Positions 146-32,386 of a stretch of DNA of 64,000 bases are shown here, piece by piece. The notes below the pieces were generated by a model. That model had not been told where the DNA came from and ran no database searches. It worked only from the letters and a program-made list of their open reading frames with translations. Made by a program: the position numbers and the translations under genes. Within the stretch, counting starts at the first letter, position 1. Each line of letters begins with the position of its first letter. The stretch is from the NCBI GenBank assembly GCA_963931865.1, contig OZ007510.1, positions 3,959,366 to 4,023,365 of the forward strand, read 5' to 3'. This stretch comes from Axinella damicornis (Eukaryota > Porifera > Demospongiae > Axinellida > Axinellidae).

Positions 146-3100
146 ATGGCTGAAGCCCAAGGTGAGCCTGTTGGAAGATGTACTGAAAGAGTATGGTGAT
201 AGTTTACTAGCTACAGAAAGTGTATTGGTGATGAGGTGGAGCTGAATCCATGCAGTTTTAAATGTTTTCCAGCTCCTAGTTTGGGTCTTGATGACCTGGC
301 TGACGTGTTGGAGGAAGTTCTAAGCTCTAGTACCAAATGGTATGAGATTGGCCTCCGGTTGAAGCTCTCTATAGAGAATCTTGATGGCATCACAAGCCAG
401 TTCAGTGACCCCCGACGTTGCCTGCGTGAAATGTTGAAGGAATGGCTGAAAGGTGTTGGAGGGTCCAGACCAACCTGGGGAGCCCTGGTGGAGGCTCTCA
501 GAAGTCAAACTGTGGAAGAGCCCACCTTGGCAGGTCAGCTGGAGGCTAAGCACTGCCAGCCAGAGAGAAAGTCTCAAGGTAAGTGTAGACCGTGTATGCT
601 GTTTATGTGGCTGCAACTCGAGAGTTGTATTTCTATCCTGTTATAGAGAGTTGTCGCACTGCATTAGAGAGATTGCTTGTAAATAAACTGAAGATGAAAG
701 TCGAGTACCTAAGAAGCACCAAATGTTGCAGCGAGCAGGAGGAAGAATCCAAAGTCGATATGATCAAAGCTGTGCTGAGAGAGTATGTCACAGAATCCCA
801 GCAGTCGGGCAGCACCAAGGAGCACATAGAAGGTCACCTTCAGCGCAGAAGTGACTTTCTCCTTTCTGAGCCCATTTACAAGTGGTCTCTACAGCTTGTT
901 GCCGAAACATTTGAGAAGACAGCAGTGGACGAGTTGAACTCTGAGCCCCTCTCACCCAGCGAACCCAGTGGACCGCTCTTCTGCAAGGACACTGTCTATC
1001 ACGCAAGCATCTGTAGCCGTGCCATCAATGAGAGCAATACTGGTGACTACCTGAAGTTCTTCAAAACCAAGGTCCCTGGCCACTCCTTCCAAGCTGTCTC
1101 GATATCCCGATCCAAGCAAGACCACTACCTCATTGCAAGGCAGGGTGAATCAAAATACTACTTTGCATTTCAGAGTGAGCCAGATCTCTCACAGTGGCCA
1201 AAGCTGTTCAAGTCCTTCAGTGAAGGTAAACAGCCCCCCACATAGTATGGTTGGTGATTGCAATCCTAGCACTTTGTTTGTATGGTGATGAGCCATCCCT
1301 GCAGAAAGACGCCTAGCTATTGATACATCAGCATTAAGGTAGGAAACATGGGTACCGCGATCTCCGTAACCAAGTTGATGGATGAATGGGCAGCATCAAA
1401 GCGTACACAACAATACTTTGCATCAAACTGCTCCCTCTGCTTGAAAATGGCCTAGAACTCAATTTTAAGGCCCTCTACTAAAACTGAAAATTTGGACCCT
1501 CTCCAAGGCCCCACCCACACTCTGACCCCATCATCAATACACACACAAAAGTGGCCAAAACACTACGTATGGATTTACCACTTGCTCTCCTCAGTTGCAG
1601 GCTACAGCCCGAAACTCACTGCCGCCCTCAAAAACAGAGGTTTGGCTACCCTAGGCTTTCAAAACAAATTCCACGCACACCAACTAAAACCGACCAAAGC
1701 CAAGGCCAGTTTCCAAAAGGTCAACCTACCCCATGCAAAACTAGGTATGCTTTTCACGTTCACCTCTCAGTTACAGAGTTTTGGCCACACATCTACTCCC
1801 TCTCACCAGCCCACTCCAGCTACCAAACCAGCCAAATTCGCCCTAACACGAAAATGGGCGGGGCCTGTAATGCCGAAAGGTCAACTCTCTAGAGTACCTT
1901 GGCCAGGGAGCCGTCGGGGTGGTTACTAAAATCCGGAACGGAACGGAACGGAATGGAACGGTTCCGCCTACTAAAATACGGAACGCACGGAACGGAACGA
2001 TATCCAAGCTAGCATAATTTTCGCAGCGCAGGCAAAGACTAGGACTTAGAGGACGCTTGAAAATCATGGTAAGACTTGCTTGTCATATTCTGTTGAGAAG
2101 AGAGGAGGTATACTTGGCCAACCTTGGGTCTCTCTGCGGAGGCTTCTCCGCGCGCATACTGGCGATCGTGCCCTGGACTCAAAGCGAAGGGCTAGCTTGT
2201 TAGACTAGCGGAGGCTCATGGATCACTCTCTCTGGATCTGGGAAGCTCTCTAAAAATTGTAAATGTAGTGCCTAATCTTTTCCTCACCATGCATGAACGT
2301 GAGCGCATAATGCATTGCGCTGTGCCTGATGTTCCGTTCCGTGCGTTCCGTATTTTAGTAGGCGGAACCGTTCCATTCCGTTCCGTCCCGTTCCGTATTT
2401 TAGTAACCACCGCTGTCGGATGCTGTTCACTTTCCAGGCTGTTCTTCGGCCACTTCAGCAGACCCACAAACATGCATTCCTGCTCACTCCACCTAGCTAC
2501 TCATACTCAGATAGCCCATCACTACATTCAATAAGCTAGAATAGTTCCTTATTACACTCCTGGTAGGGGAAAAATTGTGCCGCGTAATGTAATCTAATCT
2601 AATCGAATCTAAATAAATAAATAATTAACGTTTGACTACTTCGGAATGGCCTACAAAGATTCTGACTACACCGTCGTGATCGCTATGATGCGGTGACACA
2701 AAATCAAAATAATTGTGCTGAAACTCACCTTGGTGGCGGAGATACAAGCGCTTTTGTCTCGCCGTGGCCGCCATTGCTCGCGCCCTCTCACCGACTTCCG
2801 GTGGCAGTACCGTTCTTAGGAAAGGCACACGAAGATTCTAACCACACAGCCGTGATCGCTGTCGTTCACTGACGCTTACATGCCAAAACTCACCGTGCTG
2901 GCTAAGTTGTGAGTGCTGTCTTGTCTTCCTTTTGGTCGCCATTGCTCGCGATTGACTGAGCCACGTGGCATGTGCGTTAATTGGAACGAATTGCAATAAT
3001 TAGCTTCGCTACGGCGAGGCAACCGCGGCGTTGCAACGGCTACCAGGAGTGCGGTTGCCCCTCGTTTAAAAAAAAAGAAAAAAAAGAGTGTTGTAACAAA

Positions 3101-6100
3101 TCTTCAAAGTACCGCACGGCCACATCAGAGTACCGATTTGAAACTTGAAAGGGCCGCTAGCTGCATCAAAGAGAGAAGCCCCCCTTGTTTATTCCGGTTG
3201 CCGCCATGGGAAAACGTAAACAGATTAATAACTCTATATAACCGTATGCGAGTGACGTCATCTCATTAATTATTCATGAGCAAAATTGTGCGATTTTGCC
3301 GGTGTCATGCTTCCTACCTTAATAAATATCGGCATTGCATAGCTATCGGATTCTCTTCAAATGAAGTTATGTGCATGCCTTAGAATTCATGGCCATGATC
3401 ATTCTTATGATCCCACTACAATTGTATATAGGGATCAAGATACAGAGTGAGAGATTTCCAGTCCGCTTCATTGTGGAGCTCCTGACCCACAAAAAGTGCC
3501 GCATCATCCTCACAGGCTAGTGATTATTGAATACCCTTGTGCAACTAATTAGTTGCACTACCTGTACCATTAAATTTTGTTCTAACAGGCTTTTCTTTTG
3601 GTGGTCTTCTGGCCTGTGCTGTGGCTGCTTGTGTGTGGGACTCTGACTACATCCCGGCCAGTCTTCTGAAGGAGAACATGGTCTGCATCACGTTTGCCCA
3701 GCCACACATCCCGGTCCCTTGGCTACCAGAAGTGGCCCAAGAGCGACCAGACCTGGTCTCCACAATACACACAATCTACTGGGAGGGAGATCTGGTCCCT
3801 CGGCTGTCCAGGTTTCTCAATGAGTGCTGCAGTTCCCTTGGAAGTGAAGAGAAGCACAGCCTCCAGCTCAAAATGCAAAGCCAGCCGGGATTGGTACGAG
3901 ATGTGTTTCCTGTATAATTATAATATTTTCATGATATAGCTTCTTTCAATTCTGTACAGCCTTTCAATGACCCATTAACCTCTCTTCTGTTTGAGCATCT
4001 TGGGAAGCTTCAAGGAGGTACTACAAAGGTACAAACTTCTTGCCCCCTAGCAACAGACATCCTCTTGCAAATCTTGAAGCATACGTTTCTTCACTATTCC
4101 AGGAAGGGAAGTCACCTGACATTACCAAAGCAAAGGGCCTTTCAGAACTGAAGGCTACATTAGTGGATATTGCACAAAGTCTGGCTGCTGCTGGTGGTTC
4201 CAATCAGCTTCTCCCACACACCACCCCCTACCTTGTGTCCCTTGACCCCTCTACTGGCCTCCAGTGGGGGAAGATGATACAGGAACAAGCCCTCCTCCAG
4301 TCCAACTACCTCCAGACAGGAGAGATTGAAAGCATCACCACAGAATTACTTAAGAAGGTACAGATGTATGTAAGCTGCTTTGTTTTGCTACGACTTTAAC
4401 ACATATTTGATGCCCTCAGCATTCTATGGCAGAATATTGCCAGAAGATCTTCCGAAGCTTCCTGGAGAAGTTCCCAGAATATACTCCTCCCTCTCGCACA
4501 AAGCAGTCACCTGTGGAGCTCACCATGCTCAATCCATCCATTACTTCAGTGGAACTCCACAGTCATGGCAACGAACTGGCTATAGTTGCAGAGGGGAGCA
4601 ACCTGTGGTTCTGCTACCAGATCTCCATTGGTGGCCACACTATCCAGACTCCAGCACACGATCTTAGTGGCACCTCCATCCAGTTCAACGTCCAGAGGGA
4701 GGAGAGCAAAATTGAAGTGGTAGAGGAGAAAGTCTGGGTTGTGGTGTACAGCCATTTCTCAAAGAAACCACTCAGTAACATTGTCTCAGTTCTTCGGAAG
4801 GTGAGTGGGTCTTGTGCTCCATCTACTGCTCCGGCCAATTAGGTGAGGCATGGGACCTCATTACTGAACTCGACACTCACATATTTGAATCTCCTGGTCC
4901 TTTATTAGCCCTCCAATGTGATGTCACTACTGTGTTTGTAGATTGGCAAACCAGAGTATTCCTACCTTCATCGCCGAGAGCCTTAGCGCAAGGCAACTAA
5001 TCTGTTCGCAATCTCAGCTAGTGAGCTCCTTAGTGCGAGGCAACTAATCTCTCCATGTAGGCCACAATCTCAGCTAGGGTTTGTATATATACCGTATAGC
5101 GGGAAAATTTGGCGGGGGTTTTAATTTGGCGATTTGGCGGTGCAGGAAAAAATCGCCAAATTAAATTCCGCCAATATTAAACCCCACCCCAGCCGGCAAC
5201 TCTGGTATGCGCGCGCACATTAGTAAATGCACATACGTACGTAGCGCTGTACCAGTATTTCAAGCTGCTGTATACTCCCAAGAGAACGCGACTTCGGGGA
5301 TTCCTCTCTCTCCAGGAAGGAACTACAAGCCGTTAACGGGACGTGGCCAACGATTGCGCTCGAGCGCATCACTGCCACAGCGCAATCCAGTCGCCGCTCT
5401 CGGACGGTGGAGCTCAACACTGTATGGAAAAAACGTAATGGCCTCTGACACATCTCTCTACTTCGAAGGCCTCCATGGTTAGCTGGTAACTAACTGGTCG
5501 CACTCGATCGATACTGCACTGAGCGCCTAGCGCGCCTTAGCACGCTGAGGCTTACGTCATTGCCGTTACGTCATTTGTGTCGAGGATCGATCGAAAATCG
5601 CCAAATTTAAAATTCGCCAAATTAAAAAAATTTAATACAGCGTTTTGGCTGAAATCGCCAAATTTAATGCCCGCCAAATTTTCCCGCTATACGGTATACA
5701 TAATCGTGTATATGTGGCAATAGTTAGTCATGCTTAGGAATGCAATTGTAGCAAGGTTCCAGGACTCAAAAGCACATGGCCAAATCATACGAGGAGTTCA
5801 GAGTACACCAAATGACAAAGTACAAGGTTCACAGTTCACACCACATACGTACTGCTACATCACTGCTACATGGTACATTCTGCTAATAGACTGTTACATG
5901 GTACATTCCAAATACACTGCTACATAACTCCCCCTCCACAAGAATTCGTCCCGAATTCAATGTTCAATGTAGCTCCCATACCATTCAGGCTGGGCACGGT
6001 CCCTGCGAGGGTAACGAGGTTCAGTGGGACCATCAGGCTCGTCAACGTCATCGCACTCTAGTGGTTCCATGTCTGCACCAAAATAATACGGGGTGGCATC

Positions 6101-9100
6101 TTGGCTCAGAGGTGGGTCCTCTCCATCGACAGAGTCAGGGACTTCCACATCAAATCTGGTCCCTGGGGTACATAGTTTCAGGCGGTTAAAATGAACCACC
6201 AGAACTCTCTTGTTCCCAGTCAGCTTTTTCACTCGGTAGTCACTGTCAGAGAGCTTAGTGAGCACTTGAAACGGACCCGTCCATGGGTGATGAAGTTTCT
6301 TCGATTTCCCTTGAGGAACCACTACAGAATGGAGCCAGACCAAATCTCCAACAGTAAATGGTCTGCCATGGACTCGCTTATCATAGTAGGCTTTCCGGCG
6401 GACATGTGATGCAGCTAGCTTTTCACGGACATGGCGGTAGGCCTCTTCAAGTGCCTTCCTTGTCGCAGCAGCATACTGTGTGGTGGGTACTTCCTTTTCC
6501 TTCTCATTTCCCATGCCATACATCAAATCGATAGGCATTCTAGCTTGCCTGCCAAACATCAGGAAGAAGGGAGTATACCCAGTGCTGGCGTGCACACTAG
6601 TGTTGTAGGCCATGCAAACTTTCGGTAGCTGGTCTTCCCAGTCAAATGGGTGAGTCTGAGTAGTGGTCGCCAACATATCCAGTAGGGTGCGATTGTAGCG
6701 TTCCACCAACCTGTCACATTGTGGATGGTACGGAGATGTTCTGGTCTTTTTCATCCCAAGGATGTTACAAACTTCATGCAGCACTGCAGATTCAAACTGC
6801 TTTCCTTGATCAGAATGAAGTTGTTCTGGGGGTGAGAATCGGCAAAACATTTGGTCTACTAACTTCCGAGCAACGGTTACTGCTTCCTGATTGGGGATAG
6901 CGTACGCCTCCATCCACTTGGTAAAATAGTCGCCTGCCACCAGAATGTAGGAGTTTCCTGCAACACTCTCCATCAGAGGCCCAAGGATGTCTACTGCGAC
7001 CACTTGTAGAGGGTAACCTGCCTTGATGGTCTGTAATGGACCACGATTCCGCTGAGGTGCTGACTTTCTCGTAGCACAGCTTGGGCATGTCCGAATCCAC
7101 TGGTCCACCTCTTGATGCATTCCTGGCCAGTAGAATCTTTCCTTGATTTTGGAGACTGTCTTTTCCACCCCAAGGTGTCCTTCCAGGGCACCTGAGTGGA
7201 GTTCTCGCATAATTTCTTCCCTCAAGGTGTGGGGCACTACCAATTGCTGCCAAGACCGGTTACCACCACTGTCTTCATACTTCCGTTTGAGCAGCCCACC
7301 ATCTGCAAGCAAACGCTCCCACAGCTGCAACAAGCGTTGGGCTTCTGGTCCCTCCTGTCTGACATCACCAGCATCTGGTTTTTCTCCTTTTTCCACTGCC
7401 TGGAGCAGGAGGCTAATCGGGCCATCTTCAAGCTGGAGCTTACGGTGGTCTTGAGGGGACCTCTCCACTAAAACAGCAATGGGACTATGAGCAGGAACTG
7501 GGATAGTTGCTGTGGAAGTTTCCTCATGGCTGTCACGTCCACACTGTGAGCATGGTCGTCGGGACAACGAGTCAGCATTACCGTGCCTCTTCCCTGGACG
7601 ATGGACGATACAGAAATGGAATTCCTGCAGTCTCTCCAACCACCGTGCAAGCTGGCCCTCTGGTTCCTTGAAGTTAGCCAACCAGGTGAGAGATCCATGG
7701 TCCGTACGGAGTTGGAACTCCCGGCCTAACAGGTAAGAGCGGAAATGTTGGACAAACGTCACCACTGCCAGAAGTTCCTTCCTGGTGACACAGTATTGGC
7801 GCTCATGCCGGGTAAGCACTCGACTGGCATAGGCCACGACACATTCTGATCCATCCTCTCGTGACTGTGATAGCACTGCCCCAATCCCAGTATCGCTAGC
7901 ATCGGTGTCCAGAGTAAAAGGCTTGCTGTAATCTGGAAACGCCAGAACTGGTGCTGTCACTAATCTGCGACGCAGCTCTTCAAAGGCATTCTGGGCTTTC
8001 TCAGTCCACTCAAACTTGGCCGTTTTCTCAGTCAAGTGATGAAGTGGCTTGGCGACTGTGGCGAAGTCTTTCACAAACCTTCTGTAGTAATTAGCTAGCC
8101 CCAGGAACTGCTGAACGTCTCGCTTTGACATGGGAACTGGCCAAGTAGCCACCTTCTCAGTCTTCCCGGGGTCGGTCCGTACACCCTCAGCACTAACAAC
8201 ATGGCCTAGAAACTCCACCTTCTTCAAACAGAGGTTGCATTTGCTGGGCTTTAACTTGAGCCCTGCCTCTCTCAGACGCTGAAACACGTTTCGAAGGTGA
8301 GCAAGGTGCTCCAGAAAGGTTTTCCCTGGGATGACGAGATCATCAAGGTAGACTAAACAGGATGACCACTGTAAACCAGCGAGAACTGCATCCATTAAGC
8401 GCTGGAAGGTGGCTGGAGCGTTGCAGAGCCCAAAGGGCATTACACGGAATTCGAATAATCCCTCTGGGGTGCAGAATGCTGTCTTTTCACGATCCTTGGG
8501 GTCGACCTCCACCTGCCAGTACCCGCTTAGCATATCCAAGGTGCTGAACAGCTTGGAGCCAGCTAGGGTATCAAGGGTATCGTCCACCCTGGGTAGGGGG
8601 TAGGCATCCCTTCTGGTCACTGAATTTACTCTCCTGTAGTCCACACAGAACCTGAGTGATCCGTCCTTTTTAGGGACAAGTACAACCGGTGAAGCCCACG
8701 GGCTATCAGAGGGTTGGATGACCCCCCTGCCTAGCATGTCATCCAGCAGTTTCTTGGCTTCTTGTCATCGAAACTGAGGGACCCTACGCACTTGCTGACG
8801 GATCGGTTGGGCCGTTCCAGTGTTGATCGTGTGTTGGATTCTCCCTGTTTGACCAAGGTCATGGGGTCCTGTGGCAAAAATGTCATGATACTCCAGTAGG
8901 AGGGCGAACAGCTGTTCTTTCTCCCCCTGGCTAAGGCATTGCTCAGATTGTTCAACCAGTTCCCACAACCTCTTTCGATGCGCTTCAGTAGGTTCGCCAG
9001 CTTCTTCGTCGTCCGAAACTACCGCAACACCCACGTCCCCTGGTGGCACACCCTCTACTTCTGCCACAACATTCTCTAGCTCAGCCACAGCAGTGCCTCT

Positions 9101-12100
9101 AGGAATGGTCACTTCTTCGTCTCTAGGGTTTAATAACCGAAGTGGAATGCTACATGCTTCTGGCAGCACAAGAGCTCGTGCAACCATCACTGCATTGCGT
9201 CCCTGAGGTTTCCCCTGCACTACCCACGTCTTACTAGTGGCTGCTGCTGGGACACTCCCCATGACTTCCATTTCACTGAATGGGGGTACCTTGACCGACT
9301 CTTGCAATATGACACTCAGGGTGGGGAATACCGATGAAGGCTGCCCTTTGGAGATGGGGAGTTTTAGTCCGCAGCTTTTCACATGCAACACATCACTGGC
9401 TTTGCCCATCTCGATGGTGCACTCCTGGTTGCGGAGGAAGTCTCGCCCAATGATCATGTCTATGGTTGGAGTCTCAGCTACCATCACTTCAACAGGGAAC
9501 TTCTCAGCAGCAAGTTGCAACTGGACACATGCACTTCCATACAATTGCAGTGGCTTCCCTTGCACACTTACCAGCTTCCTCCCTGCCGCATCCCTTAACT
9601 CAGACCCACTCCCCTTTGCTTTGTCCCACAAGTCTTTGCTCAAAACTGATGTGGCAGCCCCCGTGTCAATCAAAATACTTGTAGGTACACCATTAACTAG
9701 GCCTTCCAGCACACAATCTTTTCCAGAGGTTACTGATAAAGTAGGAATTATTGTACTCACATGAGCCTGATGTTCTCCCTCCAGTGCTTGGCTCATGGCA
9801 CAGGAGGCTCCCCGTTTCCCTGCTGCTGACGAGGCTTCTTCGGGGTCGGACAGTTTCGGGCAAGGTGGCCTTCACCTCCACAATTCCAGCAGTTCCCAGG
9901 ATTCGATCGCGACGATCTTCCTCTCCACCGACCACGGCTGGGGGCCCTGTTGCCCTCCGATGCTGGAAGCTGTCGTGCGCTCTTCAATTCGGTTTCAATT
10001 CGGTCCATGCGCTCCATAATCAGCTTCATTGCGTTGTCGTGGGCCCTTGAATTCACTGTGGCAACTGCCTCAGTGCTCTCACTCCCCATGCTCACAGGTG
10101 AGACTTCTGCTGACACAGATGGCTTCAGGAATGATTCCATCTCCAGGGTAGATCGCACTGCATCATCCACAGTGTTTGGCTTCGTCTGCTTGACACTGAA
10201 GGCCACCTGGGGGTTGTCCAATTGTGATAAGTACTGATTTAGGGCAAAGCGTTCCCTGGCTTCCTCTGGCAAATCCGGATATGCCCTGTCAGCCAACAGC
10301 CTCAGGTCATCTCCAAACGCTGCCCATCCCTCACCCGGTTTCTTCTTGCGAGTCACCAGCTGGGTCCTGTACAGTTCCTTCTTACTGTCTGGTTCAAATC
10401 GACTCTTCATAGCTGCGATGGCGAGGTCAAAGTCTGCCCTGGTTGCTTCAGGTAAACGTCGGAAGGCAGTCCCAGCCCTTCCCGTTAGGCGTACACACAG
10501 CCATTTGAGCTTGTTGGCTGCATTCCAGCCACACACCTGCGCAACACTATCAAAGTGATCAATCCACTCGTCCCAACTCTGCTCTCCCGTGTAGAGTTCT
10601 GGAATGACTGGTGGTTTAGCGGCCATTTTGCTGCTCGACTCGCGTTACTCTCTCGTTAGCTGCGCGAAGATACGATCCTGCCGACTACGCCAAATGTAGC
10701 AAGGTTCCAGGACTCAAAAGCACATGGCCAAATCATACGAGGAGTTCAGAGTACACCAAATGACAAAGTACAAGGTTCACAGTTCACACCACATACGTAC
10801 TACTACATCACTGCTACATGGTACATTCTGCTAATAGACTGTTACATGGTACATTCCAAATACACCGCTACACAATTACCAGTTAAGATTAAGTACACGC
10901 ACGTGTGATGGTACATACTGATCTTTGTACATTTTAGCGATGGATACTGAGGACGGGTAGTGCAACAAAGTCAGCAGCTCGAGCTCTTACTACTCTTCAT
11001 AGCCAAAGACAGAGAGCTAACCACGCCATGAGTTTCAGCGCTTGGGGAAGCGTGCACTACTTCAACGAACTCTTCCAATGTATGCTTTGGCATCTTCTTA
11101 AAACTTCTGACACGTGGCTGGCTTACTACATGAGGCAATGCCTACTAATTATGCTCATGTGCACGAGGCATTCTCTGCACATATTTATATTCCTAATAGA
11201 TTAACTGAATGGTGTAGTACTCAATCAACAACAATTTGTATGCTCTTGTTGTAGGAGTACCCTGTTACATCCAGACAACAACAGCTTGCCAGGCTCACCC
11301 CATCCCAGCTGATCGAGCTGGCCTATCTCAGCGCACTACTGGAACAACACCCATATGGCCCATTCCAACCAGTCTCACACAAGGTGGAGGTCATCAGGAG
11401 GTTTCTGGACGACGTAGTACCAGTTGTACCACTGGAGAGCATCGCATATGCCATTGCATATGGCAAACCATATGAGATTGCCATTCAGTGTTCTGAGGCT
11501 CTTATGTCTACACAGCTAAATCTTCCACTCTCTCTGCTGATGGAAAGTGGATTGGGAAATGCATGGTATCGATTTAAATCAGGAGTGTCACCTGCAATTA
11601 TTGGTGATATGCAAACCAAAGCTCGAGAGCAGTCTCCAGGCAAGCACCCATGGTGTCGTATCACCAAAGATTCCAAACAGCTTACAGTGACACTGCTCAA
11701 TGAGGAGAGGATAGCCTCTACAGCAACCAGTTTGGACTGGGAGAAACTGAAAGAAGAGTATGGTGAGGTTCCAGCTCAGGATGTTGTACCACATGAAGTA
11801 GCAGCATATCTACGGAAACTATTCATCGAATTATATGATCAGAAAAGAGCAGCAGAGAAGCAGGGTAATCCAGTTAACATCATATGTGGACTGAGTGTAG
11901 AGCAGTTGTACCCCATCACTACAGACCCCACCCAACAATTGTCCACATTGAAATCCCCACTCGATATTTTGCGAGCAGGAAAATGGAAACTAGACTCACT
12001 TACTAGAGAAGCTCAAGAAATTGCTCCTGCCAAGAGGTGCTTAAGTTCAGACAGCCAACATCCAAAAGAGAGAGGTATGCTGTCTCTGTGCAATGCCCTC

Positions 12101-13882: not shown

Positions 13883-17325
<3,443 letters not shown>

Positions 17326-17496: not shown

Positions 17497-20400
17497 ATGG
17501 CTGAAGCCCAAGGTGAGCATGTTGGATGTGCTACATGCAGTAGTGATAGTAATGAGGTGGGATGAATCCAATTTTATGTTTTGCAGCTCCTAGTTTGGGT
17601 CTTGATGACCTCCGTGATGTGTTGGAGGGTATTCTAGCCTCTAGCACCAAGTGGTATATGATTGGCATCTGGCTAAAAGTCCCCTTGGACAAACTTGATG
17701 GCATCAAACAGCAGTCTGGTGATGCTGGGGGTCACCTTTGTGAAATGTTGAAAGAGTGGTTGAAAGGAGCTTCAGGGTCCAGACCAACCTGGGCAGCCCT
17801 GGTGGAGGCGCTCAGAAGTCAAATGGTGGGAGAGCCTGTGCTGGCAGATCAGCTGGAGGCTAAACATTGCCAGCCAGAGAGAAAGTCTCAAGGTAAGTGT
17901 CTCTGAACTGTCCCTTATATGATATAACCTCATACCCCGTCCTCTAACACACGTACTCATGATCAGGAGATTGAAAGAGGCTGGGTACAAGGCTATATAT
18001 CTACTGTTTATATGTAGACTTCTGCAGGGCCGTAGGAGTAGGTGCGGCAGGTGCGGCGGCCGCCGGACCAATAATATGCTCAGTCTGGCTAGCAAGTTGT
18101 TGAATCTTGCAGTTTCATCCCAAGATTGCACCAGAAACGATCTCAGAAGGTCTAAAATTCAAAATTTTCCTGGGGGAGATCCCCCTATGTCACGTGCTTC
18201 GCGCGCTTGCTACGCTTCTCGGTTGGCGCGCTGCACACGCCATGCCATTGCGCCCCCACGATTTCATCGCTCAAATATGCAAAGTGCTCTTCGCCTCACC
18301 AAACTAACATTGCTTCCTACGGGCCTGTTCTGGAATACACATGGCTGATTAGTGTCACCATTCCTAAATCGATTATATGCCATGTCTCTTCAACATAACC
18401 CCATGTTCTATCACATTTATGCAGGGAGTTGTTGCACTGCATTAGAGAGCTCACTTCTAAATAAATTGAAGAGAAACGTTGAAGACCTAAGCAGCATCAA
18501 GTGTAGCAGCGAACAGGAGGAAGAATCCAAAGTCGATATGATCAAAGCTGTGGTGAGGGAGTATGTCACAGAATCCCAACAGTCGGGCAGCACGAAGGAG
18601 CACATAGAAGGTCACCTTCAGCGCAGAAGTGACTTTCTCCTTTCAGAGCCCATTTGCAAGTGGTCTCTGCAGCTGGTTGCTGAAACATTTAAGAAGACAG
18701 CAGTGGACGAGTTGAGCTGTGAGCCCCTCTCACCCAGCGAACCCAGTGGGCCGCTCTTCTGCAAGGATACTGTGTATCATGCGAGCATCTGTAGCCGTGC
18801 TGTCAATGAGAGTGATGCTGGTGACTACCTGAAGTTCTTCAAAACCAAGGTCCCTGGCCACTCCTTCCAAGCTGTCTCAATATCCCGGTCCAAGCAAGAT
18901 CGCTACCTCATTGCCCAGCAGGGTGAATCAACGTACTACTTTGCTTTTCAGAGTGAGCCAGATCTCTCAAAGTGGCCACAGCTGTTCAAATCCTTCAGTG
19001 AAGGTAAGCAATCCCACATAGGTGATTGCAGTACTTTTACTTTGCTTCGTAACGAGGGGCAACCGCACTCCTGGTAGCCGCGATGCAACCGGTTGCAACT
19101 CGCTGGGTGGTCATAGTCTTCGTGGCAATGAAACTTTGAAAGACACTTTCCTATATTCACATGAATATCGGCATTACCAGTACATCTATCTGATTATCTT
19201 CAACTCATTAATAATTCATAGATGATCATTGTTATGGTCCCACTGCACTTGTATAGGGATCAAGGTACAGAGTGGGAGATTTCCAGTCCGCCTCATTGTG
19301 GAGCTTCTGACCAAAAAAAGGTGTCGCATTGTCCTCACAGGTTAGTGGATATGAAACTGCTTGTTCTCTTGTACAACTACGTAATAATGTACCACCTGCA
19401 CCATTTGTCCCGACAGGATTCTCCTGTGGAGGTCTTCTGGCCTGTGCTATAGCTTCCCGTGTGTGGGACTCGGACTACATCCGGTCCAGTCTTCTCAAGG
19501 AGAACCTGGTCTGCATCACGTTTGCCCAGCCACACATCCCTGTCCCTTGGCCATCAGCAGTGGCCAAAGAGCGACCAGACCTGGTCTCCACAATACACAC
19601 AATCTATTGGGAGGGAGATCTGGTCCCTCGGCTGTCCAGGTTTCTCAATGAGTGCTGCAGTTCCCTTGGAAGTGAAGAGAAGCACAGCCTTCAGCTGAGA
19701 ATTCAAAGCCAGCCGGGATTGGTACGAGATGTATTTCCTTCATCAGGGGTGTAGACAAGTTTGTAAGAGTGGGGGACTTGGATGGGAGGATGAAGCATGG
19801 GGGGGGGGGGGGGGGGGGGGGTGATCGTGTGCGAAGTGCACGCAATTTGTTTCAGTTATATGTAACCATGAACGTTAGCATTACGTAGACTTGCATGCAA
19901 ACATGTCACTGTTGCGTTGGCTGGTGAAGCCTACATCTGTTGGCCAGCTCAATTCCCAAGCCAGTGGTATTTCAATGCAACCAGAAAGCCAGACCCAGAC
20001 TACATCATCAACCAGTTCGAAAGGTGCCGATGCCCGGCAGCCTGCTTCGTCTTAACTGGTACATGATTCTGCATGTACATAACAACAAAACAGATGATCT
20101 TGAGTTGGATGGTATAGTGAATGAATTTGTATCACGCAACAGTAGTCGCCTGCTAATAGTATTCATTGTATAGAAAACTGGTGGTTTATTATTTGACAGA
20201 GGAATCTCCCCTTGTCTACACCCTTGCTGTATATAATATTTTCATGATATAGCTTCTTTCAATTCTGTACAGCCTTTCAAGGACCCAGTAACCTCTCTTC
20301 TGTTTGAACATCTTGGGAAGCTTCCTAGAGGTACTACAAAGGTACGAACTTGTTGCCCCTAGGAAGGGACACCCTCTTGCAAACGTTTAAGCATGCTTTT

Positions 20401-23400
20401 CATCATTATTCCAGGAAGGGCAGTCACCTGACGTTACCAAGGCAAAGGGCCTCTCAGAACTGAAGGCGACCCTAAAGGATATTGTTCAAAATCTGGCTGC
20501 TGCTGTTGGTTCCAGTCCATTTCTCCTGCACACCACCCCCTACCTTGTATTCCTTGACCGCTCTACTGGCCTCCAGTGGGGGAAGATGACACAGGAACAA
20601 GCCCTCCTCCAGTCCAACTCCCTCCAGACAGGAGAGATTGAAAACCTCACCACAGAATTACTGAAGAAGGTACAAATGAGTTGATTGTGCTGTAGTATTT
20701 CCACATGTACTTGAAAATAACCATATATGATACCTCTAGCATTCCATGGCAGAATATTGCCAGAAGATCTTCCGAAGCTACCTGGAGAAGTTCCCAGAGT
20801 ATACTCCTCCTCCTGCAAAGCAGTCACCTGTGGAGCTCACCATGCTCAAACCATCCATTACTTCAGTGGAACTCCACAGTCATGGCAACGAACTGGCTAT
20901 AGTTGCGGAGGGGAACAACCTGTGGTTCTGCTACAAGATCTCCATTGGTGGCCACACTATACAGACTCCAGCACACGATCTTTGTGGCACCTCCATCCAG
21001 TTCAACGTTCAGAGGGAGGAGAGCAAAATTGAAGTGGTAGAAGAGAAAGTTGGGGTTGTGGTGTACAGCCATTTCTCAAAGAAACCACTCAGTAGCATTG
21101 TCTCAGTTCTTCGGAAGGTGAGTGGATCTTGTGCTCAATCTACTGCTCAGGCCAATTAGGTGAGGCAGTGAGCTAGCCACGCCATGAGTTTCAGCACTTG
21201 GGGGAGTGTGCACTACTTCAGCAAACTCGTCCAACGTACGCTTTGCCATCTTCTTACAACAGCTTCTGGCACGTGGCTGACTTACTGCATGAGGCCATGC
21301 CTACTAATTATGCTCTCGTGCGTGAGGCATTCTCTGTGCATATGTATATTCCTAGTATAGAGTCTCTTTTATATAGTAAGTTGCACTCAAAAATGCAATC
21401 ACTTAAGGTTAATGGTACGTGCTGGTCTACGTGCGTTTAGCGATGGATACCGCAGATGAGTTGGAGGGGCCAGTGCAGTGCAGTCTGTGACTAATGAAAG
21501 AATGAGAAAATGGAATGCAAATGCTAGCTGAGATCGTGGCCTACGCGGAAAGAGCACTATTTGTTAATGTGGGGTATGAACTGTAGTGAACTATTGTTAG
21601 TAGTATGTGTTACGTACTTGTGGTTACTATATTTAGCCATTGTGCTGTATAACTATAGTGTATGCCACGTGCTGTACCAGTTGAGTTCTTGCTATCATAT
21701 TGTTCAAGTGATAAGACAATACCACAGTCCACATGGCTTTATTGTGCGCTGCCAATGCGGTCGCATATCAACACATGCACATAATCAAAGGTGTGTGTGA
21801 GCTCAGCAGAGATTTAGTTAAAAGCAGCTGCAACAGCACATAACAGAAGCTGCTTCAGCGTATGCAGAGTCCCAGGCATTTCTCCCTCCCAACAACTATA
21901 CACTGGCCTTCTACATGATGCCGTTATTCTCACCTGCACTAGGCATACTCTGTATTCCAGGTTACCTGAATGGTGTAGTACTCAATCAACAACCATTTGT
22001 ATGCTCTTATTGCAGGAATATCCTGTTACATCCAGACAGCAACAGCTTGCCAGGCTCACCCCATCCCAGCTGATCGAGCTGGCCTATCTCAGCGCACTAC
22101 TGGAACAACACCCATACGGTCCATTCCAACCAGTCTCGCACAAGGTGGAGGTCATCAGGAGGTTTCTGGAAGATGTGGTACAAGTTGTACCACTGGAGAG
22201 CATTGCATATGCCATTGCACATGGCAAACCAGATGAAATTGCCATTCAGTGTGCTGAGGCTCTGATGTCTGCGCAGCTAAATCCTCCATTCTCTCTGTTG
22301 ATGACAACTGGGTTGGCAGAAGCATATGGTCGAATTAAGTCTGGAGTTTCACCTGAAGTTATTATTGATATGCAAATCAAAGCTCGTGAGAAGTTTCCAG
22401 GCATGCTCCCATGGTATAGTGTCACCAAAGATTCCAAACAGCTGACAGTGACGATGTTGAATGAGGAGGGGGCGGCCACTTCAGCAACCAGTTTGGACTG
22501 GGAGAAGCTGAAGGAACAGTATGGTGAGGTTCCAGCACAGGATGTTGTACCACATGAAGTTACAGCATACATACACAAACTAGGAAGCGAGTTGCATGAT
22601 CAGGAAAGAGCAGCAAAGAAGCAGGGCAATCCAGTCAACATCATATGTGGACTGAGTGTAGAGCAGTTTTACCCCATCACTACAGACCCCACTCAACAAG
22701 TGTCCACATTGAAATCCCCACTCAATATTCTGCGAGCAGGAAAACAGAAGTTAGACTCACTAACTAGAAAAGTTCAAGAAATTGGTCCTGTGAAGAGGTA
22801 CTTAAGTTCAGACAGCCAACATCCAAAAGAGAAAGGTGTGCTGACTCGGTGCAATGCCCTCATGCTCAAAAATGTGAATGAAATCCGACAAGGTGACCTA
22901 GCTATATGCACTTCTCTTCTTGGAGGCTTTATGGAGCAGCAGGAAATCGATATACCTCTTGTGAAGTCCCGAAGTGATCGCTCAGAAGCACTTAGTCTTT
23001 CCGGAAGAGCCAGCATTGGGGTGTGGGCACTGTCCAGCCTTGATTACTCTGCAATCCAGCCAATTCTTGCTCGATGCCATGGCAACCAACTACTGGTGAA
23101 GATTGAGAACTATGTGAAGGCCATATTCAGTGCGAAAGCAATGGCGTCAGAAGCTGACGACAACCAGTACGCAGCAAAGCTCCAGTTCATAGTGCAAGGG
23201 ATGATGAAAACAGTGACCTGCAACACCCAGTACATCAGCTATTCCCTCGAACGTCAACTCAGTGAGCTGTGTGAAGACCGAAAGATTGATACACATTTCC
23301 CTCTGGACAAATTGGTAGGACAGTGGGGAGTGCTCTTCAAGGACAATATCCTATCTCTTGTGGCCATCTCCCATCGCCCACTCATTGCTCGCTGGTTGAA

Positions 23401-24460
23401 GTGGGCGCTGATGGTTCACAACCTTCGTGAGGAGCTGGCCAAGTACACAACAGTCGGGGTGGTTGGGCTGGTTAATTCCGGGAAATCCAGGCTGGTCAAC
23501 ACACTCTTTGGGATTAAAGTAAGTGCCTCATGGGGAAGATTCAGGTCACCTTGCATACTGTTACCTTCCTCCACTTCTTTCACAGATCCCCACTGGGACC
23601 ACAGAGGTGAAGCGCACAACTGTGCCTCTCATGTACAACCTGGATGAGAGAGTTGAGGAGGGTCTTGATGTGGTGGACTTCCCAGGGGTGGACGACAGAG
23701 ATGAGACTATCTCAGACCTTGCAGACCTCCTCCTCACTCTGTCACAGATTGTCATCTTCGTGGTAGACTACAGGTATGTTGCTGTTATCAATAGTACAAT
23801 GGATCCCCTCTAATATCGACACCCTCGAGCCCAAACAGTGTGCCCGATTAGCAAGGTGTCCTCTTTCAGCCAGAAAATTTTACATGAAGGATTGATCAAG
23901 TGTCCTGATTAACAAGGTGTCCCATTATCAGGAGTGTATTAGGCTCATAGAGTCCAGATATTATTACTGTTTGTAGGAAAGTCCACACGGAATCGGCCAA
24001 GAAGTGGCTGGAGAGGCTGCAGGTGGAGAATGTTCCTGTTCTGGTGTGCCTCACGTTTGCTGACAAGTTGTATGCTGAGCTCATGACAGAAGATGGGAAG
24101 CACCCCCTGAAGGAGAGTGTGAGATATGAGCTTGCAGTAGAACAAACTGTAAGTGTCTCTAAATTTCAACATGCTCTTCCTTGGGATTTCCTTAATGTGT
24201 TTCTCCTGCTTTCTTTTACGTAGGCAATCCAAGAGAAGCTAGGCTCCTCCCCCTCCCGTATGATCAAGTTCTTCTCATTCAGCCAGGACCGTGACTCAGT
24301 GCTCAACTGTGAGGATGGGAGGCGCATGATGAGGGAGGTGGGCATCGGGACCCCCCTGGAGGTAGGGGAGTGGCTGGTGGACGTGTTCCGGAAACGCTTT
24401 GGCCAGGAGGACCTAGCTGACAGGCTGCACAGTGTCATACACAAAACTTTGGAACTTTAA
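17497..24460 (+). CDS. DLG-B: Death domain - class 3 lipase - GTPase protein, intact
   Basis: Exons are 17497-17512, 17587-17892, 18425-19003, 19257-19340, 19417-19721, 20273-20341, 20415-20669, 20740-21117, 22016-23518, 23586-23773, 23977-24148 and 24224-24460. They again total 1363 residues, with exon 8 one codon shorter and exon 10 one codon longer than in DLG-A. The domain order is the same. The lipase elbow reads GFSCGG instead of GFSFGG. The exon 4 donor is ordinary GT, where copies A and C have GC. The P-loop, DFPG and TFAD motifs are unchanged. Intron 5 carries a 23-base G run, and intron 8 lacks the retrotransposon found in DLG-A, so that insertion postdates the duplication. The frame is fully open, so this is the second apparently functional copy. 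Confidence 0.85.
19799..19821. repeat. Poly-G tract (23 G) in DLG-B intron 5
   Basis: An uninterrupted G run. Others occur at 53594-53627 and at the right edge (63976-64000). They may be real or collapsed or expanded by sequencing. Confidence 0.9.
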
Positions 24461-24594: not shown

Positions 24595-24648
24595 ATGCCG
24601 CGACACAAAAGAGGAAAGCTTCACCTCGGAAAGAGGCGCTCCTTGGAG
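24595..24648 (+). pseudogene. Isolated exon 1 of the DUF445-type gene
   Basis: 54 bp encoding the same 18-residue MPRHKRGKLHLGKRR start and a GTAAGT donor. The next DUF445 exon is absent from the B-C interval. A degenerate VIPAS39 exon follows about 190 bp later. Confidence 0.8.
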
Positions 24649-24833
24649 GTAAGTTGATTTGTTATACATTAATTGTATGACAATAAATCGATGAGACGCT
24701 GCGGGCAGTGGTCCCGGCGGAGTGATCCTGATGACCTTACAAGCCTACATGTATATGGGCCAGTTGCTTTATTACTGGTGAGCCTGTGGACATGTTAGCA
24801 TGTAATGTAACGTGATCTCGGTATCTTATTACA

Positions 24834-26067
24834 GGATTCAGATCTTGAGTCAGAGCAGAGCAGCGGCATTGATGCTCAAGCCCCTCACCACCACACTGCT
24901 CTACTCCTGCCATTACCATAGAAGCGACCCCGAGGTAGAGCCTGCAACAGAATCCTTAATGATTAAATTTCTGGCCTCCATTAGAATAACATGCTTGTTT
25001 CCAGTATCTTTGCACACTGCAGCAGTACTTTTGAATCGCCCAGTCTGTCCAGGTCATTCAACATCTCTGAGAAGCAGTTCTTTCAGGTGGTGCTGTTGCC
25101 CTCTGTCTTCAACAGAACTGGAGTGCCTTGGACACACTTGTTACAACTAAGGTATCGTACGTACCTCAGTGCATGTGAAGATTCTGGCCTTGGCGGTTTA
25201 TTCCTGTACGTCACCTGGTTGTGTGAGTGTACCGATGTGCCCCTCTCTGCAGGGTGTGTTCGGACTATAGCTAGGTAAGAAGAGTCGTCCCATTGGGTTT
25301 GAGTGTGTGGTGAGGACTCTGTCCAGCAAGAGGCACAATTGAACAGTCTATACCTTCTCTGCGAGTGATTATTATTATGCCTTCTCTTTGGCCACGACAG
25401 ATATTGACCAAATGTCTCCAGGAGGTCGAGGACTTGGAAGTGAGATTGCAGCTAGCTACCGAAGTCCAGGTCTTTGATGTTGGGATTGAGGTAGGCCTCT
25501 TTCTTGTGGATTGCTCCTTCCTATATAGTAGGAGCTCCTCAGATGAGGTGTCTCATACCCTCCTTCCCATCTTCTCCCCTGAGTTGTAATCACCATGATA
25601 CCGTGTGCAGGTATTGCGGCAGCTGAAGGATCATGAGAGACTGGACTGTTACATCAACCAGATCCCTCCATCCAGGCATGGGGAGTTCCGAGGGAAGATA
25701 CAGTCTCTGCTCAACAACACTGTGAGTACTGGATTGCTGTCTGATTACCGTACTGCAAGCGAAGGAAAGCTGGGCGGGGCCTGGGACGAGGCTAGTCACC
25801 ACCCACTTTGGTTCCAATTACAAGAAATGTATACTGACAATCAGCAGTAATCAATTTAATCTCATGAATTTTGACCCACTAATAACTGCCTGACTGCAAA
25901 CTGAACACCCTATTGAAAGCGACGAAAAGCTGGGCAAGGGCCTGGGAACAAGCCTAGGTGGCTAGTATTATAGCTACTTGATTGAAGTGACGTAGTCTGA
26001 TGATATCTGAGTGACATTGTGTTGCTGTTGTTTTGTTGTTCCTCTGCAGCAAATCAAGTGGAAATGA
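24834..26067 (+). pseudogene. VIPAS39: Degenerate VIPAS39 3' fragment
   Basis: This is the second copy of the VIPAS39 3' exons, decayed. The first exon (24834-24933) is out of phase by one base relative to 15808-15918. The next exon (around 25034-25151) has lost part of its start. The exon after 25254 reads GVFGL then a TAG stop and has lost its donor by deletion. Only the exons at 25401-25490, 25614-25724 and the last one at 26050-26067 (QIKWK, stop) look intact. It is non-functional as a VIPAS39 unit but keeps the DLG upstream spacer. Confidence 0.8.
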
Positions 26068-26235
26068 TAATGACCAAACCCTACACAATGAATAATGATG
26101 TGTGATGTTTGTTAGTGTATGAAATATTTGTGGTGACATCAGTGTTCAAGCATGCAATGAATATAGGGTGGATGGAACAATAGTAACAGGCACACCCTAT
26201 TTTGCAGTTAGCTGTACAGTGTGTGTGTTTTGGCC

Positions 26236-29200
26236 ATGGCTGAAGCCCAAGGTGAGCCTGTTGGAAGATGTACTACAGTAAGTGTAATGGTGATAGTAAT
26301 TAATGAGGTGGAGCTGAATCCATGCAGTTTTAATGTTTTCCAGCTCCTAGATTGGATCCTGATGACCTGGGTGAGGTGTTGGAGGAAATTCTAGCCTCTA
26401 CCACAAAGTGGTACAAGATTGGCCTACGTTTAAAAGTCACCGTGGACAAGCTTGATGGTATCAGAAGCCAGTTCAGTGACCCTGGGGACCACCTTTGTGA
26501 AATGTTGAAAGAATGGCTGAAAGGAGCTGCAGGCTCCAGGCCAACCTGGGCAGCCCTGGTGGAGGCTCTCAGAAGTCAAATGGTGGGAGAGCCCAAACTG
26601 GCAGATCAGCTGGAGGCTAAACACTGCCAGCCAGAGAGAAAGTCTCAAGGTAACTTACTAAGTGCCTCCATGTAACTGTTGGGGAGAGGGTTTTTGGGAG
26701 GGGGAGGAGGGATATGGGGTGGAAGCGAGGAGGGGGAGAGAGGGGAGGAGAGTTGGAGGGAAAGGAGAGTGCATGGAAAGGAAGGGTGGTGGGGAAGGGG
26801 GAGGAGGGTGTAGTATCAACAGGTTTACGACCATATATATGTTAGGATAGGATATGTAGCTATATATACTGACTAAAAATGTAGCTATTTGACAGAAATT
26901 TTTATGCAATTGAATTCAGCTTGGTTGATCATATCTCCAGGCCCAAGTATCAACCTGGGATGTTGGAGTCCAATAAATAATTATATGCCACCACAGCACC
27001 ATGTCTCACCCCTTTCTATTCTATTATAGGGAGTCGTTGCACTGCATTAGAGAGCTCACTTCTGAATAAATTGAAGACAAAAGTTGAGTACCTAAAAGGT
27101 GCCAAGTGTAGCAGCAGACAGGAGGAAGAATCCAAAGTCGATATGATCAAGGTTGCGGTGAGGGAGTATGTCACAGAATCCCAGCAGTCGGGCAGCACCA
27201 AGGAGCACGTGGAAGGCCACCTTCAGCACAGAAGTGACTTTCTCCTTTCCGAGCCCATTTACAAGTGGTCTCTGCAGCTTGTTGCCGAAACATTTGAGAA
27301 GACAGCAGTTGACGAGTTGAACTCTGAGCCCCTCTCACCCAGCGAACCCAGTGGGCCGCTCTTCTGCAAGGACACTATCTATCATGCAAGCATCTGTAGC
27401 CGTACCATCAATGAGAGCAATACCGGTGACTACCTGAAGTTCCTCAAAGACAAGTTTCCTGGCCACTCCTTCCAAGCTGTCTCAATATCCCGGACCAAGC
27501 AAGACCGCTACCTCATTGCTCGGCAGGGTGAATCATCCTACTACTTTGCTTTTCAGAGTGAGCCAGATCTCTCAAAATGGCCACAGCTGTTCAAATCCTT
27601 CAGTGAAGGTAAACAATCCAACATAGATTGATTGGTGATTGCAATACGTTTACTGTGTTAGTGTGGTGACCCATCCTGCATAAAGACATTTTTGCCAACT
27701 CCCCCCAAAGTATAATATTATGTCCCATAAAAAATTATGCTGACTGTCATCTTGTAATTTTTAGCAGTTAGGCTCATCATTGATGGTCATAGTCATTCTT
27801 ATTGTCCACTTAAATAGGGATCAAGATACAGAGTGGGAGATTTCCAGTCCGCTTCATTGTGGAGCTCCTGACCAACAAAAAGTGCCGCATCATCCTCACA
27901 GGCTAGTGATTAATGTACCTTTGTGCAACTAATACATTGCACTACCTGTACCATTTGTTCCAACAGGCTTTTCTTTCGGTGGTCTTCTGGCCTGTGCTAT
28001 AGCTGCTTGTGTGTGGGACTCTGACTACATCCCGGCCAGTCTTCTGAAGGAGAACCTGGTCTGCATCACGTTTGCCCAACCACACATCCCTGTCCCTTGG
28101 CTACCAGAAGTGGCCAAAGAGCGACCAGACTTGGTCTCCACAATACACGCAATCTACTGGGAGGGAGATCTGGTCCCTCGGCTGTCCAGGTTTCTCAATG
28201 AGTGTTGCAGTTCTCTTGGAAGTGAAGAGAAGCACAGCCTCCAGCTCAAAATGCAAAGCCAGCCGGGATTGGTATGAGATTTATTTCCTGTATGTAATAT
28301 TTCATGATAATAGCTTCTTTCAATTCTGTACAGCCTTTCAAGGACCCAGTAACCTCTCTTCTGTTTGAGCATCTTGGGAAGCTTCAAGGAGGTACTGCAA
28401 AGGTACAACCTTGTTGCCCCTAGCAAGGGACACCATCTTGCAAAACATTTAAGCATGCTTTTCATCGTTATCCCAGGAAGGGCAGTCACCTGACATTACC
28501 AAGGCAAAGGGCCTCTCTGATCTGAAGGCAACCCTAAAGGATATTGTTCAAAATCTGGTTGCTGTTGGTGGTTTAAATCAGCTTCTCCTCCACAACACCC
28601 CCTACCTTGTGTCCCTTGACCCCTCCACTGGCCTCCAGTGGGGGAAGATGACACGGGAACAAGCCCTCCTCCAGTCCAACTGCCTCCGGACAGGAGAGAT
28701 TGAAACACTCACCACAGACTTACTGAAGAAGGTACCGATGAGTTGATTTTGCTTTGCTGGTTCCACATGTACTTGAAAATAAGTTCACATGCATCTGATA
28801 CTTCTAGCATTCCATGGCCGAATATTGCCAAAAGATCTTCCGAAGCTCACTGGAGAAGTTCCCAGAATATACTCCTCCCTCTCCCACAAAGCAGTCACCT
28901 GTTGAGCTCACCATGCTCAAACCGTCCGTTACTTCAGTAGAACTCCATAGTCATGGCAACGAACTAGCTATAGTTGCAGAGGGGAACAACTTGTGGTTCT
29001 GCTACCAGATCTCCATTGGTGGCCACACTGTACAGACTCAAGCACATGACCTTAGCGGCACCTCCATCCAGTTCAATGTCCAGAGGGAGGAGAGCAAAAT
29101 TAAAGTGGTAGAGGAGAAAGTTGAGGTTGTGGTGTGCAACCACTTCTCAAAGAAAAAACCACCCAATAACATTGTCCCAGTTCATCGGAAGGTGAGTGCA

Positions 29201-32200
29201 AGTTGTGCTCTAACCACTGCTCAGGCCTATTAGATGAGGCATGGGAGCTGTAACTCCACTCGAATGTTTGACACTCACACATTTGAACCTTGTGATCCCA
29301 AATTACCCAGCGATGCCAGTTAAGGATGTTAAAGATTGCTGAGAAGTGGAGTTGCACAACCCAACTCTGCCTTTGATCGCTGCCCTGGTGCAAGATAATA
29401 TAAGACACTTTGATTTAGCCAGTAAGAGAGAGAGAGCTGCAGTGGAAATTAGAATGCAAACTTAGTAACTACAACATACATACCTTATTGGGATTTAACA
29501 TACTTATAGCAAGTGGGCTTATATATTCCAACTGGCTGGCCTGAATTGGGTGTTCCTAGGTGTTGTAAATCTCCCGTATTGAGCTTGTATTGTGTCTGAC
29601 CAGCATGCTAGTGTGAGTAGCATTTTTCTGAGGCTGATCGGATGCCTAACATGCAGCTCGGCAGATGGGTGGTGACAACTTGTTCCCTAGTCTGGAATGG
29701 GTGCATGGGGCTCTAGCCAATTATTGAGCAGAAGGGTTGTTAGAGGCTTAGTTAGTGTCACCTTGGCATTGGATTTGATGTGTACAAGACCAGAACCTTT
29801 TTGCAAGCATGATGGTGGTATAAGGAACTAAGGGAACTGCTATCGAGTTATAGGTTGCTTGAATGATGTAGTATATATTCCATCACTGACAATCAGCCAT
29901 TTGTCTGCTCTTGTTGTATAGGAATACCCCGTTACATCCAGACAACAACAGCTTGCCAGGCTCACCCCATCCCAGCTGATCGAGCTGGCCTATCTCAGTG
30001 CGCTACTGGAACAACACCCATACGGTCCATTCCAACCAGTCTCGCACAAGGTGGAGGTCATCAGGAGGTTTCTGGAAGACGTAGTACAAGTTGTACCACT
30101 GGAGAGCATTGCATATGCCATTGCACATGGTAAACCAGATGAGATTGCCATTCAGTGTGCTGAGGCTCTTATGTCTGCACAGCTATATCTTCCATTCTCT
30201 CTGTTGATGACAAATGGGTTGGCAAAAGCAGTTCGTCGATTTCAGTCAGGAGTTTCACCTGAAGTTCTTACTGATATGCAAATCAAAGCTCAAGAGCAGT
30301 CTACAGGCATGCTCCCATGGTGTAGTGTCACCAAAGATTCCAAACAGCTGACAGTGACAATGCTCAATGAGGAGAGGGCAGCCACTTCAGCAACCAGTTT
30401 AGACTGGGAGAAACTGGAAGAAGAGTATGGTGAGGTTCCAGCACAGGATGTTGTACCAGGTGAAGTTGTAGCATATATATTGAAAGCACAGAAGGAATCG
30501 ACTAGTCAATGGATAGCAGCAATGAACCAGGGTAATCCAGTCAACATCATATGTGGACTGAGTGTAGAGCAGTTGTACCCCATCACTACAGACCCCACTC
30601 AACAACTGTCCGCATTGAAATCCCCACTTGATATTCTGCGAGCAGGAAAACGGAAACTAGACTCACTCGCTAGAGAAGCTCAAGAAATTGTTCCTGCCAA
30701 GAGGCACTTGAGTTCAGACAGCCAACATCTAAAAGAGAAAGGTGTGCTGTCTTGGTGCAATGCCCTCATGCTCAAGAGTGTGAATAAAATTTGACAGGGT
30801 GACCTAGCTATATGCACTTCTCTTCTTGGAGGCTTTATGGAGCAACAGAAAATTGGCATACCTCTTGTGAAGTCCCGAAGTGATCGCTCAAAAGCACTTA
30901 GTATTTCCGGAAGAGCAAGTGTAGGGGTGTGGGCACTGTCCAGCCTCGATTACTCTGCAATCCAGCCAATTCTTGCTCGATGCCATGGCAACCAACTACT
31001 TGTGAAAATCGAGAACTATGTGAAGGCCATATTCAATGCGAAAGCAATGGCATCAGAAGCTGATGACAACCAGTATGCAGCAAAGCTCCAGTTCATAGTG
31101 CAAGGGATGATGAAAACAGTGACCTGCAACACCCAGTACATCAGCTATTCCCTCGAACGCCAACTCAGTGAACTGTGTGAAGACCGAAAGATTGATACAC
31201 ATTTCCCTCTGGACAAATTGGTAGGACAGTGGGGAGTGCTCTTCAAGGAGAATATCCTATCTCTTGTGGCCATCTCCCATCGCCCACTCATTGCTCGTTG
31301 GTTGAAGTGGGCACTGATGCTTAACAACCTTCGTGAAGAGCTGGCCAAGTACACAGCAGTCGGGGTGGTTGGGCTGGTTAATTCTGGGAAATCTAGGCTG
31401 GTCAACACACTCTTTGGGATTAAAGTGAGTTCCTCATGTGGCTAACTTAGGTCACCTTGTATGTATACTGATAACTCCCTCCAATTTTTTCTCAGATCCC
31501 CACTGGGACCACAGAGGTGAAGCGTACAACTGTGCCCCTCATGTACAACCTGGATGAGAGAGTCGAGGGTCTTGATGTGGTGGACTTCCCGGGGGTGGAC
31601 GACAGAGACGAGACTATCTCAGACCTTGCAGACCTCCTTCTCACCCTGTCACAGATAGTCATCTTCGTGGTAGACTACAGGTATGTTGCTGTTATCAATA
31701 GCACAGTTATAAGTACAATGGATCCCCTCTAATATATCGACACCCTCAAGCCCAAACCATGTGTCTGATTAGCAATTAAGGTTTCCTCATTTCAGTAGGA
31801 CAATTTTACATGAAGGATTCATCAAGTGCCCTGATTAACAAGGTGTCCCATTATCAGGAGTGTATTAGGCTCATAGAGTCCTGATTTTATTAGGAAAGTT
31901 CACACGGAATCAGCCAAGAAGTGGCTGGAGAGGCTGCAGGTGGAGAATGTGCCTGTTCTGGTGTGCCTCACGTTTGCTGACAAGTTATATGCCGAATTCA
32001 TGACAGAAGATGGCCAGCACCCCCTGAAGGAGAGTGTGAGATCAGAACTTGCAGTAGAACAATCTGTAAGTGCTTCAAACTAATTATTGTAAGTAACATG
32101 CTCTTCCCTTTGCAAAGGGTGATATTTTTCTCCCTTTCATTTTATGTAGGCAATCCAAGAGAAGCTAGGCTCCTCCCCCTCCCGTACGATCAAGTTCTTC

Positions 32201-32386
32201 TCGTTCAGCCAGGATCGTGACTCAGTGCTCAACTGTGAGGATGGGAGGCGCAGGATGAGGGAGGTGGGCATCGAGACCCCCCTGGACGTAGGGGAGTGGC
32301 TGGTGGACGTGTTCCGGAAACGCTTTGGCCAGGAGGACCTAGCTGACAGACTGCACAGTGTCATACACAAAACTTTGCAACTTTAA
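26236..32386 (+). pseudogene. DLG-C: Death - lipase - GTPase copy with a nonsense codon
   Basis: Exons are 26236-26251, 26344-26649, 27030-27608, 27818-27901, 27967-28271, 28334-28402, 28477-28731, 28808-29191, 29922-31424, 31496-31680, 31894-32065 and 32150-32386. All splice sites are usable, with a GC donor at 27902. Total length would be 1364 codons. Codon 957 (30792-30794) is TGA where A and B have CGA, a CpG-type transition. Translation would give 956 residues: Death, lipase and part of the middle region, but no GTPase. Everything after the stop is well preserved, so the lesion is recent, a sequencing error, an allele, or a tolerated truncation. Confidence 0.8.

Follow-up and report, generated by a model that had tools for sequence, protein, structure and literature searches.

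Three tandem genes on the forward strand, which we call copies A, B and C, occupy the first 32.4 kb of a 64-kb window of Axinella damicornis DNA (contig OZ007510.1; the window is the whole stretch of 64,000 nucleotides analysed here). They represent a sponge protein family that joins in one polypeptide a death-fold adaptor (Death or CARD), a helical linker, an EDS1-type lipase-like domain, an IPT/TIG-like sandwich, a variable helical region and an Era/EngB/IRG-like GTPase, followed in some members by ZU5. We have moderate confidence that the family so composed acts as an immune or cell-death switch. The gene structures, the domain order and its recurrence in other sponges are seen directly; the EDS1-type fold is a prediction made on a relative.

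Copies A (positions 146-13739) and B (17497-24460) each yield an open model of 12 exons and 1363 residues, the length first proposed for A, and are 87.3% identical; the spliced model of A has no internal stop, and its exon boundaries are conserved across the three copies. The exons of A lie at 146-161, 273-578, 647-1225, 3432-3515, 3589-3893, 3960-4028, 4103-4357, 4420-4800, 11255-12757, 12827-13011, 13260-13431 and 13503-13739, and those of B at 17497-17512, 17587-17892, 18425-19003, 19257-19340, 19417-19721, 20273-20341, 20415-20669, 20740-21117, 22016-23518, 23586-23773, 23977-24148 and 24224-24460. Copy C (26236-32386) also has 12 exons, at 26236-26251, 26344-26649, 27030-27608, 27818-27901, 27967-28271, 28334-28402, 28477-28731, 28808-29191, 29922-31424, 31496-31680, 31894-32065 and 32150-32386, with 1364 codons including an in-frame stop. 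This stop, a TGA at codon 957 in exon 9 (30792-30794), lies upstream of the GTPase and makes copy C truncated or a pseudogene; the order that the initial annotation gave for the three genes holds for all of them, as do the 12 exons of its transcript, and A and B have an intact reading frame. Exon lengths are equal across the copies in 10 of the 12 exons (exon 8 varies by 3-6 nucleotides, exon 10 by 3), and 31 of the 33 introns have GT-AG borders; intron 4 is GC-AG in A and C but GT-AG in B.

Protein identity among the three copies is 87.2-87.9%. The ratio of nonsynonymous to synonymous substitution (dN/dS) between copies is 0.33-0.41 overall (0.39 for A versus B); it falls to 0.13-0.28 within the GTPase and rises to 0.50-0.86 across residues 671-900. 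Among blocks of 40 residues, 761-800 in exon 9 varies most, at 52% of its positions, and is on this sequence evidence a candidate sensor surface. Intron 8 of copy A holds a Ty3/Gypsy-like retroelement on the reverse strand (5957-10644), with two frames that match profiles of protease, reverse transcriptase, RNase H and integrase.

Protein searches retrieved 32 relatives that share the whole core or part of it, at 29-41% identity to copy A, which ruled out a family confined to the window. These searches used shared 5-residue words and two of the three scored only the best 7986 candidates; they could therefore overlook remote relatives outside the sponges. The relatives assigned to an organism in one search of 24 are all demosponge proteins, two from Halichondria panicea, four from Amphimedon queenslandica and one each from Ephydatia muelleri and Geodia barretti; P0017, which bears a eukprot code, looks like the Ephydatia gene. 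The domain order proposed for copy A recurs in Halichondria: its two proteins align to copy A over 99% of the length at 39-40% identity, and in a tree of the core region they form a group with the three copies (Shimodaira-Hasegawa-like approximate likelihood ratio test, SH-aLRT, 97). Two peptide patterns matched 59 stretches of GTDB contigs, none of them confirmed as a prokaryotic relative, and PADLOC gave no match for three relatives. P0009 has a ZU5 domain after its GTPase (22.0 bits, cut-off 21), and P0004 (20.9) and P0008 (17.4) have ZU5 matches under the cut-off; all three have a further C-terminal extension beyond the ZU5 match, reminiscent of PIDD. We found no description of the sponge Death-lipase-GTPase domain set in the open-licence papers covered, which is no proof of absence from print, in line with the initial view that no family with this set had been described. 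The word 'lipase' does not occur in the available parts of PMC8195603, on sponge Death/TRADD-N architectures, or of PMC12345144.

The N-terminal adaptor of copy A is a Death domain (residues 13-83), encoded in exon 2 (273-578) and found both by Pfam and by a family profile. The Pfam Death match reaches 26.4 bits for the N-terminal 100 residues, 25.1 for the exon 2 reading frame and 21.3, just under the cut-off of 22.6 bits, for the whole protein. Pfam Death matches at E up to 1 occur in 8 of 9 aligned N-termini (the three copies and six relatives), and the profile of these nine sequences matches the death domains of FADD (7.3e-6), PIDD (4.8e-4 and 9.2e-4) and RIPK1 in PDB, which bears out the Death domain first assigned. 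Among the Amphimedon relatives, P0016 (22.7, barely) and P0024 (25.2) also score above the Pfam Death cut-off. Pfam CARD matches are clearly above their cut-off in P0021 (44.4) and P0023 (50.5) and under it in P0007, P0009 and P0011, and the profile of six CARD-type N-termini, four of which have a Pfam CARD match with E no higher than 1, finds the CARDs of ICEBERG (0.0012), NLRC4 (0.003) and ASC (0.0059). The Death/CARD label changes at least three times on the core-region tree, in which the CARD labels of P0004, P0010 and P0013 rest on our own reading of the N-termini and not on a full-protein Pfam match; the difference may have a single origin. Between two CARDs, P0021 (~200-350) and P0023 (~125-270) have a stretch without Pfam match, which might be a TRADD-N-like domain.

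The lipase-like domain of copy A matches Lipase_3 (PF01764) with an E value of 2e-6 and 28.2 bits (curated cut-off 22), in agreement with the class 3 lipase first annotated. Plant EDS1, PAD4 and SAG101 are the best PDB sequence matches of the family profiles (4.3e-10, 3.6e-11 and 2.4e-11) and of single relatives (2.3e-10, 5.3e-8 and 6.4e-4), and they are also the best structural match by Z (18.8, 3.9 Å, 262 residues) of residues 238-571 of a model of the Halichondria relative P0001, which is about 40% identical to the window proteins. At the family level the domain is predicted from this model to be a lipase-like alpha/beta-hydrolase of EDS1 type, an affinity that animal class 3 lipases (such as diacylglycerol lipases) may share. 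The fold reaches about residue 555, with a beta sandwich after it (strands 589-679 of the model), which Foldseek matches to the IPT/TIG domain of EBF1 with a probability of 0.99 but an E value of 0.056; mapped to copy A, the sandwich takes up residues ~574-665 in exon 8 (4525-4800, approximate limits). The region of roughly 580 residues first described as unknown is in part the remainder of the lipase fold and the sandwich. The rest, a helical region at residues ~670-1130, had no convincing match of its own among the matches listed, which is not proof of a new fold.

Two of the three catalytic residues named in the initial annotation stand. Ser331 (codon 3594-3596) lies at the nucleophile position in TGFSFGG, which the family profile aligns with GHSSGG of EDS1, and is Ser in 18 of 21 members; Asp396 (3789-3791) is Asp in 19 of 21. 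His443, the proposed triad histidine, is not conserved in the family alignment. The better candidate is His539 (4420-4422), which is His in 17 of 21 members and lies in a stretch (fkkhslek) that the family profile aligns with RDHHSYEE of EDS1; a reading of 'no conserved histidine' came from a too-short alignment and was dropped when a longer one gave His539. Residue 389 of copy A, seven residues before Asp396, is also a histidine, kept in 20 of 21 members and outside the expected triad order. Ser331, Asp396 and His539 are present in A, B and C, and all three occur in 14 of 21 members, a count of residues in aligned sequences. Intact triads would allow a GTP-gated true lipase, in which lipid hydrolysis releases mediators or damages membranes while Death/CARD and GTPase do no more than set where and when the enzyme acts. 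We consider this possible but unlikely, because 7 of 21 rows, among them all four Amphimedon rows and one of the two Halichondria proteins, have a broken triad, the serine motif starts GF instead of GH in 18 of 21 rows, and the relatives' sequence searches rank first EDS1/PAD4, in which the lipase-like domains serve as a scaffold without catalysis according to PMC6377607.

The C-terminal P-loop GTPase was correctly recognized from the start. Copy A matches MMR_HSR1 (1.7e-10) and Dynamin_N (2.4e-7), and has a G1/P-loop motif, GLVNSGKS, near the end of exon 9 (12704-12727), a G3 motif, DFPGVDD (12914-12934), and a G4-like motif, CLTFAD, of the form T-x-A-D (13330-13347); the closest folds of the domain are IRG and EngB. 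The motifs agree with the G1 GxxxxGKS/T, G3 DxxG and G4 [NT]xxD motifs of TRAFAC (Era/EngB/IRG-like) GTPases. The C-terminal model gave weak Foldseek matches (best E 2.4e-3, none ≤1e-3). Fold matches include EngB, Der, eIF5B, mitofusin and EHD, and copy A alone matches nearly exclusively GTPases in PDB (best EngB, 0.031), apart from a single hydrolase at chance level (0.59), aligned elsewhere than in the lipase region. Together with the Dynamin_N match, these results would suit a role in housekeeping or trafficking and not in immunity, for a large GTPase whose lipase-like domain is regulatory and whose death-fold domain is used for ordinary assembly. We regard this as distinctly improbable, since tandem copies with one broken, relatives at only 29-41% identity and a changeable death-fold N-terminus would be unusual for such a protein.

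Some relatives come from contigs that barely exceed the coding sequence (1331 amino acids on 4180 bases, 1436 on 4553 and 1323 on 4523), and because these are little longer than the coding sequence of a many-intron gene, they look like transcripts that join lipase and GTPase. Eleven of the 32 relatives (P0021-P0023 and P0025-P0032) stop 11-42 residues past the P-loop, near the exon 9/10 junction, which in A is 10 residues past the P-loop; they were probably cut at one conserved intron by prokaryotic-style gene calling. The in-frame stop in C, the retroelement in intron 8 of A and the GC donors of intron 4 in A and C would fit a gene-model artefact or decay, with the Death-lipase and GTPase parts in separate genes or the locus dead, but this is very improbable and largely refuted by the open frames of A and B over 12 exons with their dN/dS of 0.39, by the position at which the shortened relatives stop, and by independent full-length relatives, since Halichondria proteins and single open reading frames on cDNA-sized contigs show this order too.

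We favour the view that these proteins act in the cytoplasm as switches in immunity or cell death. The C-terminal domain, by binding or hydrolysing GTP, would change the conformation or oligomeric state; the lipase-like domain would be mainly a regulatory or dimerisation scaffold, or a ligand reader, and in members that keep the whole triad, such as copies A, B and C, it might also be an active hydrolase; and the switch would free or cluster Death/CARD, which would recruit death-fold partners. A part in biological conflict would suit the tandem duplication, the broken copy and the rapid change at residues 761-800.

Several observations weigh against this view. Among the fold matches of the GTPase, IRG, EngB and others score alike, which leaves an immune GTPase inseparable from a generic one. 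The sensor-effector role in immunity or cell death first suggested is partly supported, with the balance about even. The P-loop motif is present in 35 of 35 sequences, a biased count from a set found mostly through that region. Copy A alone, compared with PDB sequences at E up to 10, matches no lipase, EDS1 or death domain, and the EDS1 link thus rests on the relatives and the family profiles; moreover, Foldseek ranks EDS1 (5.3e-6) barely ahead of a fungal lipase (1.2e-5). The likeness to EDS1/PAD4 drawn in the initial annotation is accordingly one of the family, and does not extend to copy A by itself. The model stretch 431-580, between the Asp and His positions, has a predicted local distance difference test (pLDDT) score of only 52-85, and the death-fold region of the P0001 model is not resolved (residues 1-110 nearly all below 50), perhaps due to Death and CARD members mixed in one alignment. 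A 430-residue piece of copy B scores only 14.0 bits for Pfam Death, under the cut-off, and organism assignment covers 9 of the 32 relatives.

A second gene with transmembrane-looking open reading frames is duplicated downstream of copies A (15314-15667) and C (33940-34335), and the duplicated unit is therefore larger than the lipase gene; the frame 33940-34332 downstream of C had no Pfam match. Pieces of an ABC1/ADCK-type kinase and a GH31 glucosidase (57407-57859 and 62422-62769, reverse strand) are ordinary neighbours.

Sponge NLRs (NLRD, NLRC) occur with CARD, with Death or with neither, according to the available part of PMC12909245, and the family resembles them in its N-terminal Death or CARD combined with a nucleoside triphosphate switch. 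Unlike NLRs, it has a TRAFAC-type GTPase switch toward the C-terminus and a lipase-like domain, and neither NACHT nor LRR was found in copy A or 24 relatives, which places it outside the NLRs. The cell-death and immune repertoire of sponges would gain a large unannotated protein family, whose Death/CARD adaptor is changeable as in sponge NLRs. The GBP profile, relevant for CARD-bearing GBPs, matches copy A at E 0.24 only, and the G4-like motif of the family, T-x-A-D, differs from those of CARD-bearing GBPs and IRG. No GBP or IRG protein is known to have a lipase-like domain. The ZU5 after the GTPase in some relatives (above cut-off in P0009) recalls the ZU5 death proteins of PIDD/UNC5 type; unlike these, the family has a lipase-like domain and a GTPase, and copy A has no ZU5 match.

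With EDS1/PAD4/SAG101 the family shares a triad retained in some members and lost in others. Those proteins are found in plants, whereas the sponge family is found in animals and has Death/CARD and GTPase in place of the EP domain (PF18117), which was found neither in copy A (E up to 1) nor in 24 relatives (E up to 0.1). More tentatively, and with considerable doubt, the family might be a sponge counterpart of the plant EDS1 node, in which an EDS1-type lipase-like domain, catalytically broken in several members, shares a single chain with Death/CARD and a GTPase switch; in that case plants and animals would both have turned this lipase fold into a hub of immune signalling, possibly one that reads small-molecule signals of sponge TIR proteins. 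EDS1-type domains are plant immune hubs, and their fusion in sponges to animal death-fold adaptors and a GTPase would make a shared immune use of the fold directly testable.

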